In this document: positions 386 through 57,962 of the stretch, in pieces
Layout of the letters: each line of letters starts with the position of its first letter
Position numbering within the stretch: position 1 is the stretch's first letter
IMG/VR virus record: IMGVR_UViG_3300032291_002754
Location: 1-57,962 of that record
Source of the DNA: a virus
Length of the DNA: 57,962 nt
Direction: 5' to 3' (one strand)
Program-made: the position numbers and the translations under genes
Notes under the pieces: model-generated
Database searches by the model: none
Seen by the model: only the letters and a program-made list of their open reading frames with translations
What the model was told of the DNA's origin: nothing

Positions 386-829
386 TCATTCAGGCAGAAT
401 AATCCGAAGCACCCTTCCATCGTCTTCTGCGGCCGGACGTAGCACCGCAGGGGGTACGGCACTGGAAACTTCCGCTGCGCCCACCTCCGGAACTTGCGCA
501 ACAACGCTCTCTGCCAGCCGTAGGACGAGGTCATGGAGGCGATCCAGTGGGACGGTGCAGAGCCAATCTGCGCGGGCCTTGCGGTGCAGGAGGAACGGGA
601 CTTTGGTGCCTGCGTCGGTGATGGTCTGGGCCATCCACTTGCGCACCTGTTCCCGCTCGCAGTACTTCACCTCACAATGAATGCCCTCCACGTCGATCTG
701 GACATCGGGGCTTTCCGGACCGCCGGCATACTGGACCCCTCGCCTGGCTCGGACACCCAGGCAGTCCTCCAGAGCCTTGGCCGCTTCCCGTTCTCCGCGC
801 TTTCCGCGCTGTCGTTCGCGCCTGCCCAT
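386..829 (-). CDS. Hjc/VRR-NUC-like PD-(D/E)XK nuclease (Holliday-junction resolvase type)
   Basis: 147 residues. The N-terminal helix GKRGEREAAKAL is followed by ARRGVQYAGG, PDVQI and IHCEVKYCE. This is the E...(G)D...E-V-K layout of small PD-(D/E)XK resolvases, which cut branched DNA before packaging or during recombination. The ATG at 829 overlaps the HNH stop (TGATG) and sits 4-8 nt after AGGAGGG; a GTG one codon upstream is possible. The acidic/alanine-rich C-terminal 50 residues carry no motif I recognise. It shares an operon with recombination genes (exonuclease, ERF, SSB, helicase), which fits. A general VRR-NUC nuclease is the alternative. Confidence 0.65.
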   Translation of the reverse strand: MGRRERQRGKRGEREAAKALEDCLGVRARRGVQYAGGPESPDVQIDVEGIHCEVKYCEREQVRKWMAQTITDAGTKVPFLLHRKARADWLCTVPLDRLHDLVLRLAESVVAQVPEVGAAEVSSAVPPAVLRPAAEDDGRVLRIILPE

Positions 830-1227
830 CACGCCCTCCTTGACGGCCGAGAGTTTGCCACCCTCTCTTCAATGTAATACCCCGGTATGGGCTGGGGTTC
901 GTATGACAATGCTTTTTTGTTTCGCAGCGCCGCCATGCTGGCCGGATCGTAGTTCTTCGGGTCCGCCTCGCGTTTGGCTTGTAACAGTATACCCTTGTTC
1001 AGATCCGGGAACCTACCAAAAATTTTCCCGCTGTGAAAAACTCCATGGCAGCGCGAACAGAGCTTCAAAAAATTGAACGCGCTATTGCCCTTGGTCCGTA
1101 CTGATCCGCCCTCAAGGTGATGCACTTCCAATCGCCTGCGATGGTCATGCTCCGGCCAATGGCACACGGCACAACAATCGAACTGCTGTGACCACTCATT
1201 GATCAACCTCTTAACCTTGGCGTCCAT
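829..1227 (-). CDS. HNH endonuclease
   Basis: 132 residues. Zinc pair C19/C22, catalytic H36-H37 in LEVHHLEGG, N52, second zinc pair C57/C60 and H61/H65 in LCSRCHGVFH form a complete HNH core. Such proteins nick or cut DNA as homing enzymes or packaging-associated nucleases. The frame is open upstream to 1521, but that part is Arg-rich and lacks a start with a ribosome site, so MDAKVK at 1227 is preferred. Its stop overlaps the resolvase start. A strongly folded non-coding stretch (1260-1486, same strand) ends 33 nt before the start codon, an arrangement seen for HNH genes tied to structured RNAs. It has no RuvC domain, so it is not an IscB-type protein. Confidence 0.8.
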   Translation of the reverse strand: MDAKVKRLINEWSQQFDCCAVCHWPEHDHRRRLEVHHLEGGSVRTKGNSAFNFLKLCSRCHGVFHSGKIFGRFPDLNKGILLQAKREADPKNYDPASMAALRNKKALSYEPQPIPGYYIEERVANSRPSRRA

Positions 1228-1259: not shown

Positions 1260-1486
1260 GCGACTCCCCGGAAAGGAGAGTCGCGCTGCGCCACCTGTCG
1301 GAGCCGGCACAGCGGGAAACGTGATTTTGTTTTCGGGGTTCGCTTCCTTGCATCCCACCACCCCGTGCGGCAGAGCGCCCACGCGCCTTTGGTTTCCACG
1401 CTGGAGTCGTCAGCATGCGTGGCTTAAACCGCAATCTGCCCGCTCTTCGCCCCTTTCGGGGTGGTCGCCAGCGTTGCATCGCTGGC
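1260..1486 (-). ncRNA. Putative structured RNA upstream of HNH gene
   Basis: No credible ORF lies in 1228-1542. On the minus strand I can pair, in order: GCCAGCG/CGCTGGC (1480-1486 with 1467-1473, loop of 6); ACCACCCC/GGGGTGGT (1458-1465 with 1357-1364), which encloses GCGGGCAGA/TCTGCCGC with one bulge (1435-1443 with 1367-1374), GGTTT/AAACC (1426-1430 with 1391-1395) and CCACGC/GCGTGG (1417-1422 with 1396-1401), all nested; then GCTGTGCC/GGCGCAGC (1306-1313 with 1285-1292) and a 10-bp hairpin GCGACTCTCC/GGGGAGTCGC (1260-1284). CCCCGAAAGGGG offers a competing GAAA-tetraloop hairpin, and ACCCCG at 3' can compete for GGGGT. It could be a novel ncRNA, a cis-regulatory leader, or an intron-like or omega-RNA-like relic; the class is unknown. 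Confidence 0.55.
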
Positions 1487-1542
1487 CTTCGGCGGCGGGC
1501 CGTATTCATGCCGTGTGGCAACAGAGCCTTGAGCGTGACGTT

Positions 1543-1623
1543 CTATTCGTCCTCGCCTTCTAGAGCAAGGAGGAAAATTGAAATCAACATGATGACAGTG
1601 AAATAGTACGCAAGAGTGTTCAT
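1543..1623 (-). CDS. 26-residue membrane microprotein
   Basis: The start MNTLAYYF overlaps the upstream gene's stop by ATGA (1620-1623), followed by one hydrophobic helix (VIMLISIFLLAL) and an acidic tail EGEDE. Too short for usual gene callers, but coupling plus a clean N-out/C-in membrane pattern support it. Function unknown; small phage membrane peptides often act in host takeover or lysis control. It is the last gene before the structured non-coding stretch. Confidence 0.6.
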   Translation of the reverse strand: MNTLAYYFTVIMLISIFLLALEGEDE

Positions 1624-32079: not shown

Positions 32080-32661
32080 TCACGCGACCGGGGTGCTGAC
32101 AAACGCCAGCACGTTCGCGCCAGTCGTTGCGCCGGCCGATGCCGCGTAAGCGATCACGCCGATGCCAGTGTTGCCCGGGGAGGTGGTCGCCGCCCCAACG
32201 GTCGAAGGAGTCACTCGGCCCGAGGTGGTCGCCCCGGTCGTGGCGCCTGCCACGGCAGCGAGACGATCACCAACCGCAACCGCCGTTCCCGAAAGAGCGA
32301 CGGCCACTTCAGTTGGGCCGTTGACGGTCACCCAGAAAACATCCTTGTCGGCAACCCCGCCGGCAAGATGCTCGTCCACCACACCAACAAGTTCGTTGTT
32401 GGCAGAGGTGTTGTATCCGGCGACGGCAGAGAAGCTGCCGCTCACAAACGACACCAGTCGCTTGGGAAGAAGAGTGGTGCCGGACGAGTTGCGAACCGCG
32501 ACACAGAGTTTGACGCGGTTCGACCGGATGGTGCCGGTCTTGGGGTCAACGTCTGGGAACTGCTTGATGGCGCCGATCCAGTTGGCTCCGATTTCCACAC
32601 CACCCTCGCCAAGGCCGAGGGTCTGGCCGAGACTGAACGGCGGGTCAACGAAATAAGACAT
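32080..32661 (-). CDS. Capsid decoration / head-stabilising-like protein
   Basis: 193 residues, rich in Gly, Ala, Thr, Val. The beta-strand pattern LCVAVRNSSGTTLLPKRLVS, GVVDEHLAGGVADKDVFWVT and TSPGNTGIGVIAYAAS resembles small trimeric head decoration proteins that follow the major capsid gene. It lies 18 bases downstream of the capsid gene and is bounded by a terminator. Call rests on position and fold pattern. Confidence 0.55.
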   Translation of the reverse strand: MSYFVDPPFSLGQTLGLGEGGVEIGANWIGAIKQFPDVDPKTGTIRSNRVKLCVAVRNSSGTTLLPKRLVSFVSGSFSAVAGYNTSANNELVGVVDEHLAGGVADKDVFWVTVNGPTEVAVALSGTAVAVGDRLAAVAGATTGATTSGRVTPSTVGAATTSPGNTGIGVIAYAASAGATTGANVLAFVSTPVA

Positions 32662-41514: not shown

Positions 41515-41532
41515 CAAAAACCTAACGGGGCG
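41515..41532 (-). promoter_or_regulatory. CGCCCCGTTRG element, site 1
   Basis: Minus strand: GATTTTTTC, 7 bases, then CGCCCCGTTAGGTTTTTG. It lies after the hairpins that follow the 143-aa gene and upstream of the genes at 41180 and below. One of eight matching sites. Confidence 0.65.
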
Positions 41533-56570: not shown

Positions 56571-57451
56571 ACGATTGCCCTGCATCCTTGGGAGACTATG
56601 CTTGCCGGATTGATCAGCCCCCACCCGTACACTTCGTCTAGGCCGGGAGCGCCGACATCCATGGAGGTCATTCGTATGATGTCGTTGGCTGAAGACCCGG
56701 CGCCAGCGCCACATGCGCCTCTGGCTAGAGCCAAGACGCCGGCCACAAACGGCGCGGCCATGGAAGTTCCAGACAGGCAGGCCACGCCGCCGTCAAGCCA
56801 CGCCGATACGATCTCGCAGCCCGGTGCGGCAACGTCGATCTCCCGGCCGCGGCAGGAGAACTCGCATGCCCTGCCGTCCTTGTCCACCGCGCCGACCGCG
56901 ACCGTCTCGGAGTACGCGGCCGGGTAGTTCACGGCACCGCCGTCGTTCCCCGCGGCGCAGACAATCGTCACTCCGCTCTTCGATGCGGCCTTGATTGCCT
57001 CATGCAGCGGGCCGCAGTCGGCCGGCGCACCCAGCGACATCACAATGATCTGGCAATGGCGTTCTGTGGCGTACCACACGGCGCGTGCGATGGCCTCCAT
57101 GGATCCTGCACCGGAGTGGCCAAGCACCTTGCAACTGATGATCTCGCAGCCGGGGGCAATACCCTTGACCGCGCCTCTGCCCCCGACGATGCCGGCGACA
57201 TGTGTGCCATGGCCGACCGTGTCATATGGGCTGGAGTCGGTGGTGAAGTTGCGATGCTCAAGCACAGCACCCTCTAGGGCTGGATGCCCCGGGACGATGC
57301 CGGTGTCCAGAACACCCACCCGAATCCCGGCCCCTTGGTGGCGCTGCCAAAGGGCCGGGATTGCGTACGCGTGGAGGGACCAGTCAATGCCCGAGGAGGG
57401 GAGGGCATGGATGACGGCTTCGACACGGTACGGCGGGAGGTGGGCGATCAC
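56567..57451 (-). CDS. Subtilisin-like serine protease (S8)
   Basis: 294 residues, GTG start (GTGA overlap). Complete triad: D49 in VGVLDTGI, H81 in VGHGTHVAGIVGG, S230 in SGTSMAAPFVAG, with oxyanion N169 in VCAAGNDGG. There is no clear signal peptide, but a 40-residue N-terminal segment (PPYRVEAVIHALPSSGIDWS) may act as a short propeptide. The family cleaves proteins broadly; in a phage it could mature the virion, disarm host factors or help lysis. It is one gene cluster away from the papain-like protease. Confidence 0.9.
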   Translation of the reverse strand: MIAHLPPYRVEAVIHALPSSGIDWSLHAYAIPALWQRHQGAGIRVGVLDTGIVPGHPALEGAVLEHRNFTTDSSPYDTVGHGTHVAGIVGGRGAVKGIAPGCEIISCKVLGHSGAGSMEAIARAVWYATERHCQIIVMSLGAPADCGPLHEAIKAASKSGVTIVCAAGNDGGAVNYPAAYSETVAVGAVDKDGRACEFSCRGREIDVAAPGCEIVSAWLDGGVACLSGTSMAAPFVAGVLALARGACGAGAGSSANDIIRMTSMDVGAPGLDEVYGWGLINPASIVSQGCRAIV

Positions 57452-57771
57452 GTATCGTTCTCTCTGGTCAGCGCCGCCTTGATCAGAGCCGCAACGATTG
57501 GGACGATCACGTTCAGAAGCAGGACCGGAGCGATGCCGAAGGACTGCGCCGTCGCGATCTCATTGTCAACTTCCTCCGGCTCAACGGAGTTGGCTCGGAA
57601 CAGAGGGTAGGACTCAATGATCGGCAGGATTGCCTGCGCGATCCTGTAGACGATCTCCAGCTTCGCCGCCAGAGTCAGGCTGTCGGACCACGTAGAGACG
57701 ATGTCGGAAATCTGCCGCAGCACACCCGTATTGGAAATCAGCCACTTGACGATCAGATACTTGTCAGCCAT
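57448..57771 (-). CDS. Membrane-associated small protein, 107 aa
   Basis: Start MADKYLIVKWLISNTGVLRQ at 57771, near the stop of the join-spanning gene. KLEIVYRIAQAILPIIESYP is helical, and the end has a hydrophobic helix (PVLLLNVIVPIVAALIKAAL). Upstream of the subtilisin with GTGA overlap. Holin-like or a membrane platform; not recognised. Confidence 0.65.
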   Translation of the reverse strand: MADKYLIVKWLISNTGVLRQISDIVSTWSDSLTLAAKLEIVYRIAQAILPIIESYPLFRANSVEPEEVDNEIATAQSFGIAPVLLLNVIVPIVAALIKAALTRENDT

Positions 57772-57962
57772 CGGATTTCTCCCGTAGACACGCCACCCCC
57801 AGAACCGCATGACCAGCGATGTCAAGCAGAGTTCTCTGAATATCTATTGCGCTCAACGGGCCACGCAGCCGGCGGATTTTCTCCGCGATCCGGATGGCCT
57901 GGTATCGCCACGCCTCCACCCCGTGATCCTCGCTGGCGAGGGCATTTTCCAGCGGGTGTTCC
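57764..57962 (-). CDS. Nmad1/DUF1599-like protein, 3' part (crosses the join)
   Basis: This is the continuation of the frame that begins at 303. From the right edge it reads through the terminal repeat (57840-57962, same residues as 1-123) and ends ...IQRTLLDIAGHAVLGVACLR, EKSDG, TGA at 57764-57766. The stop lies 3 bases inside the start region of the 107-aa gene. Confidence 0.6.
   Translation of the reverse strand, partial: EHPLENALASEDHGVEAWRYQAIRIAEKIRRLRGPLSAIDIQRTLLDIAGHAVLGVACLREKSDG
57840..57962. repeat. Direct terminal repeat, copy 2 (circular overlap)
   Basis: Exact copy of bases 1-123. The duplicated end should be removed to give the unique circle of about 57,839 bp. Confidence 0.95.

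Follow-up and report, generated by a model that had tools for sequence, protein, structure and literature searches.

A compact RNA of ~270-290 nucleotides, referred to here as type A, is encoded in a short gap between phage genes, and in some related phages the same slot is filled by RNAs of other, unrelated sequence. As judged from sequence comparison, type A is folded and pseudoknotted, and compensatory base-pair changes across dozens of relatives show that the fold is real. The window, i.e. the whole stretch of DNA analysed, is the source record IMGVR_UViG_3300032291_002754 with its 57,962 bases. It carries an identical 123-base direct repeat at both ends (1-123 and 57840-57962), so that it probably represents a complete phage genome, and genes for terminase, portal and head are among its contents. 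The initial annotation had proposed a candidate new structured RNA at positions 1260-1486. This proposal is strongly supported, both by the covariation described below and by Rfam searches of positions 1100-1700, which gave no match even at E-values up to 10. The positions given were right for the location of the RNA but too short at the 5' end, where the RNA reaches ~1528.

On the minus strand, the gene order is an ORF at 1620-1886, a 26-aa ORF, the gap, an HNH endonuclease gene and a RusA-like nuclease gene (Table 1). The ATGA of the 26-aa ORF overlaps the stop codon of the ORF at 1620-1886. The gap had been described as free of credible ORFs, which is correct except for this hydrophobic peptide at its 5' end. 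A reading of the gap as a coding extension of the HNH frame was rejected: the frame is open for 230 aa in the window, and for only 6-42 codons in the eight relatives with an adjacent HNH gene in which openness across the RNA was compared. The HNH protein, of 132 aa, lacks a RuvC domain, as had been noted, and HNH is its sole credible Pfam match. Around the RNA, neither a promoter (sigma-70 consensus only) nor an intrinsic terminator was evident on its strand, a picture equally compatible with a cis element embedded in the operon and with an RNA that is processed. Because the upstream stop codon abuts the RNA in several relatives, and no terminator was seen in this stretch of the window, the RNA is probably co-transcribed with its neighbouring genes.

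Table 1. Features of the type A locus in the window. Helix strands are written 5' to 3' on the RNA strand, with descending positions.
Feature	Position	Strand	Description and basis
Type A structured RNA, whole	1260..1528	-	From the 5' hairpin GGC/GCC through the Pf 3' strand, both ends approximate; homologues, covariation
P0	1490..1513	-	CGGC 1513-1510 / GCCG 1493-1490; first pair covaries CG/UA/AU
P1 pseudoknot	1438..1500	-	GCCCGC 1500-1495 / GCGGGC 1443-1438; compensatory changes in 4/6 pairs
Pa	1366..1433	-	UGCGG 1433-1429 / CCGCA 1370-1366; compensatory changes in 5/5 pairs, 97% paired
Pb hairpin	1396..1422	-	CCACGC 1422-1417 / GCGUGG 1401-1396; compensatory changes in 5/6 pairs
Pc short hairpin	1374..1387	-	~1387-1383 / 1378-1374; compensatory changes in 4/4 pairs among relatives; register in the window approximate
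Pd pseudoknot	1334..1365	-	CGGGG 1365-1361 / CCCCG 1338-1334; 100% of cells paired; compensatory changes in 3/5 pairs
Pg	1315..1347	-	GGAAG 1347-1343 / UUUCC 1319-1315, crosses Pd; compensatory changes in 5/6 pairs
Pe hairpin	1285..1313	-	GCUGUGCC/GGCGCAGC; window sequence
Pf 3' hairpin	1260..1284	-	GCGACUCUCC/GGGGAGUCGC
ORF, 88 aa	1620..1886	-	Upstream of the RNA, same strand; no family match
26-aa hydrophobic peptide ORF	1543..1623	-	Stops ~15 nt before the RNA; sequence inspection
HNH endonuclease gene, 132 aa	829..1227	-	PF01844 in 9/9 aligned members; PHROG HNH
RusA-like / PDDEXK nuclease gene	386..832	-	Downstream of the HNH gene

The phage family was opened by the terminase, the relatives of which gave 72 loci. 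Single-sequence searches with the HNH protein and the helicase had returned none or one distant relative, and BLAST against cultured phages found the region to be without relatives, with remote helicase or HNH matches only. The terminase-derived loci yielded nine HNH homologues (46-57% identity), and a search with the HNH alignment then retrieved 80 HNH loci in viral contigs, plus a further one in a contig that binning places in the Pirellulaceae (Planctomycetota). The phages of this family have genomes of ~60 kb, and their host assignment comes from this one binned contig. For the gap itself, an exact 24-base pattern search found no match, a spaced motif pattern found nine, eight of them in this phage family, and plain BLAST matched 14 of the loci compared, at 69-77% identity. 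The ninth spaced-motif match (L184) was rejected as type A, as it received no support from the covariance model. This model, built from eight relatives with the window excluded, recovered the left-out window with 70 bits (E 3e-16) and also matched 23 other loci at E < 1e-3, all E-values being rough owing to a short calibration. A sequence profile brought 15 more type A loci, which form a divergent subtype. Whole-genome searches of 40 records gave a type A match in 15, with a single match in each of these.

Covariation was assessed on a model-based alignment of 21 sequences (A7), the plain MAFFT alignments A2 and A3 having placed Pa out of register. Its 26 pairs in five helices were paired in 96.8% of 530 pair cells, and 22 of the 26 showed compensatory changes, a count that none of 500 shuffles reached. 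Similarly, 112 cells were changed on both sides, against a shuffle mean of 27 and with none of 500 shuffles as high. When the partner strand was slid by 1-3 columns, pairing fell to 34-48%. These counts lean towards the model, because the alignment was fitted to one that contains 21 of the 26 pairs. Pd lies outside the fitted model, yet all of its cells pair and three of its pairs compensate. For the 5' domain (P0/P1), evaluated on a plain MAFFT alignment, compensatory changes were seen in six of ten pairs, a level reached by one of 500 shuffles.

The architecture shown by the comparison has at least two crossing helix pairs, P0/P1 and Pd/Pg, and its 3' end pairs over a long distance with an internal loop. 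The loop of P0 carries the 5' strand of P1, which in turn encloses a 7-bp hairpin (1486-1467) and a GAAA hairpin (1461-1450). Both of these had been recognized in the initial annotation, together with the 8-bp (1313-1285) and 10-bp (1284-1260) hairpins near the 3' end, and all four are present. The loop of Pb is conserved (CUGACGACUCC, 1413-1403), and so is the motif GGCUCC (1305-1300) in the Pe loop, in most rows of alignments A7 and A8. In types A, C and D, the coding strand carries variable GNRA-type tetraloops (GUAA, GCAA, GGAA, GAAA, GUGA). The alternative pairings suggested earlier for an ACCCCG segment exist, and the comparative data assign it the partner CGGGG at 1365-1361. Four nested segments in a single rod, in contrast, had to be abandoned. 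The rod, CCACCCCG/CGGGGUGG, is a product of the minimum-energy fold and competes with the supported pseudoknot, as the relatives favour Pd (CGGGG/CCCCG) crossing Pg instead.

The long-range pairing, Pk, joins CGACUCC (1409-1403) in the Pb loop to GGAGUCG (1267-1261) in the 3' strand. Full Watson-Crick complementarity (7/7) is kept in 30 of 33 sequences, and the seventh pair, which is variable, covaries in every one of the 33 (CG 26, UA 5, AU 2). As only this pair out of seven varies on both sides, the statistical weight of Pk lies in that pair and in the maintained complementarity. Switch-like alternative pairings had also been suggested, and they hold in part: GGAGUCG can pair either with the Pb loop or locally in Pf, but for the local alternative (Pf 5' strand or Pe loop) a 7/7 Watson-Crick match was seen in just one of the 33 sequences. 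The 3' end may lock into the Pb loop as the last folding step, with the hairpin Pf as a possible intermediate or alternative state.

Folding energy points in the same direction, as the minus strand folds better than dinucleotide-shuffled controls (z -3.56 for 1260-1486, -4.27 for 1229-1619 and -3.89 for 1240-1535). It is suggestive, not proof. The plus strand of the gap also scores z -2.4 and ~5% of this phage's minus-strand segments fall below -3 (the best one over the target is second of 381), so that energy alone would not settle the structure; covariation does.

At least four sequence types (A-D) occupy this slot, and approximately 70 of the 80 HNH loci carry one of them. Type B was found in 14 full and three partial loci (e.g., L149 2231-2518 and L106 1015-1302); compensatory changes occur in six of 24 pairs, with 0/500 shuffles as high, and a proposed pseudoknot is paired in only 76%. 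Type C is present in eight loci and in the Pirellulaceae-binned contig (e.g., L159 2140-2440, L128 1600-1900, L190 3730-4069), and type D, which may be distantly related to type C, in seven loci (e.g., L102 1262-1590 and L119 1138-1470). RNAalifold consensus folds of five type C and four type D sequences contain 18 compensating pairs each. This structural evidence is weaker, and we regard C and D as probable RNA classes. Whole-genome searches with types A, B and C gave a single occurrence per record, and no genome searched carried two of these three types.

The exchange is most apparent in the loci L170 (type A) and L165 (type B). Upstream, the two are 98.7% identical over 1.7 kb and then 93% over the last 214 bases, downstream they are 98.5% identical over 2.9 kb, and in the 265 bases between these flanks there is no similarity. 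The replaced segment is bounded by the last codons of the upstream gene and the first codons of the HNH gene. The same replacement pattern was observed between L127 (A) and L128 (C), with flanks of 81-85% identity, and between two type A subtypes in L112 and L122. Furthermore, on the HNH tree loci with the same RNA type do not group together, and the types require 19 changes compared to a minimum of five. Chimeric assembly is possible but unlikely as the source of these swaps, since they recur in several independent metagenome assemblies. No RNA was apparent upstream of the HNH gene in the ORF maps of L135, L136 and L163, which are candidate empty sites; loci that appear to be RNA-free suggest that the element is accessory, and not essential to the phage family. 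The spot is also rich in nucleases: in L102 (2092-2508) and L163 (2121-2504) an endonuclease VII-like gene immediately precedes the HNH gene, that of L102 being also downstream of its type D RNA.

The broad kind, a large phage RNA of obscure function, is precedented by GOLLD and ROOL, ornate phage and prophage RNAs of unknown function (PMC12286853). Type A resembles them in being large, pseudoknotted, phage-encoded and without a known function. It differs in its size, ~290 nt against their roughly 600-850, in having no Rfam match (the GOLLD, ROOL and OLE models were all negative), in not being near tRNA genes, of which none were found in the window or in 23 loci, and in being exchanged with unrelated RNAs at one locus. 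None of types A-D matches Rfam; across the scans of the window and of the relatives (the latter at E-values up to 1), the one match was a chance miRNA match (E 0.47). We found no description of these RNAs in the open-access library. Judged against Rfam 15 and this library, these RNA classes are new, and so is the way they replace one another at a single locus.

We tentatively favour, at somewhat less than even chances, a swappable accessory phage RNA that is co-transcribed and acts in trans. The RNA would be transcribed with the operon, fold, and be released or protected as a stable, moron-like accessory non-coding RNA acting during infection. In related phages, the comparison shows the slot to hold either type A or one of at least three RNAs of unrelated sequence, the whole unit being exchanged through recombination in the flanks. 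Such replacement of folds suggests that the RNA takes part in conflict with the host or with other phages, for example by decoying or inhibiting host defence or by excluding competing phages; the replacement pattern is the one basis for this role. The more specific idea, that the unrelated pseudoknotted RNAs are interchangeable, share one trans role and have been diversified by selection in such conflict, like variable anti-defence protein genes, seems rather unlikely.

The main rival to a trans-acting RNA is a cis-acting intercistronic element, which would control the downstream genes through masking or exposure of the ribosome binding site, mRNA protection or processing, or antitermination, with Pk versus Pf as the switch. 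The position of the RNA fits: its neighbouring genes are co-oriented, the HNH start follows 32 nt later in the window, and in several relatives the RNA comes directly after a stop codon. Its 3' strand has competing partners, and in L165 (type B) the 3' pseudoknot strand GGGGU shares bases with what appears to be the Shine-Dalgarno sequence of the HNH gene. We consider this reading possible but doubtful, as so elaborate a fold goes far beyond what plain expression control would require, RNAs of unrelated sequence take each other's place, and the downstream gene is inconstant (HNH, endonuclease VII-like, a 90-aa protein and others, at 19-121 nt). The varying downstream genes argue against a leader for any one gene, and the HNH-specific leader proposed initially was not borne out. 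A riboswitch-like cis regulator would be expected to have a constant or functionally related downstream gene, and this gene varies among type A loci. The antitermination RNA of phage HK022 is similar in being a structured RNA within a phage transcript, but such put sites are far shorter and simpler than type A. The pseudoknotted architecture, the precise cassette exchange, and the HNH and endonuclease VII genes close by would also suit a self-processing RNA, either a new ribozyme or an intron-like mobile element, its spread aided by the nearby nucleases. This is improbable, since no group I or other ribozyme family in Rfam matches and the replacement is another RNA, not an intact gene. Group I introns with HNH homing endonucleases likewise combine an RNA with an HNH gene, yet type A sits between two ORFs and interrupts no gene; membership in that family was rejected, in agreement with the earlier remark that a group I core was missing.

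A DNA-level element, such as a replication origin or a single-stranded DNA structure, is very improbable. Covariation alone cannot tell RNA from single-stranded DNA, and the set, being GC-rich, contains few G-U pairs. However, the GNRA tetraloops vary on one strand, the element always runs in the coding sense of the adjacent genes, and G-U outnumber A-C at pair positions, although these numbers are small. Scarcely credible is the idea that the RNA guides the neighbouring HNH nuclease, or partners with it, in the manner of the omega-RNA of IscB/IsrB. A structured RNA upstream of an HNH-motif gene recalls HEARO/omega-RNA, and the genomic association is close in many phages, but no HEARO covariance model matches and the adjacent protein is not a RuvC-bearing IscB/IsrB, so that HEARO membership was rejected. 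Furthermore, another gene lies between the RNA and the HNH gene in approximately 20 of 31 type A loci. Two pairs of loci also speak against the HEARO-like link considered at first: L165 (B) with L170 (A), and L127 (A) with L128 (C), have HNH proteins that are nearly identical on the tree and stand beside unrelated RNAs. One HNH protein beside unrelated RNAs argues against an RNA-guided HNH nuclease.

These results add type A as a covariation-supported RNA class, type B as a second supported class, and types C and D as two probable additions. The swap between phages with 98.5-98.7% identical flanks represents a natural swap experiment. It implies that different folds can serve the function of the slot, or else that diversifying selection acts on the folds as such; in both cases the role of ornate phage RNAs becomes open to direct testing.

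Elsewhere in the window, the top minus-strand folding signal (57305-57454, minus strand, z -6.3) overlaps the start of a protease-like ORF, and the next-strongest signals after the target are at 32377 and 41345. Between positions 41518 and 49802, eight copies (seven exact) of CGCCCCGTTRGTTTY were found, six on the plus and two on the minus strand, compared to a chance expectation of 0.6 copies in the whole window. It is possible that these repeats are an operator, promoter or terminator element.
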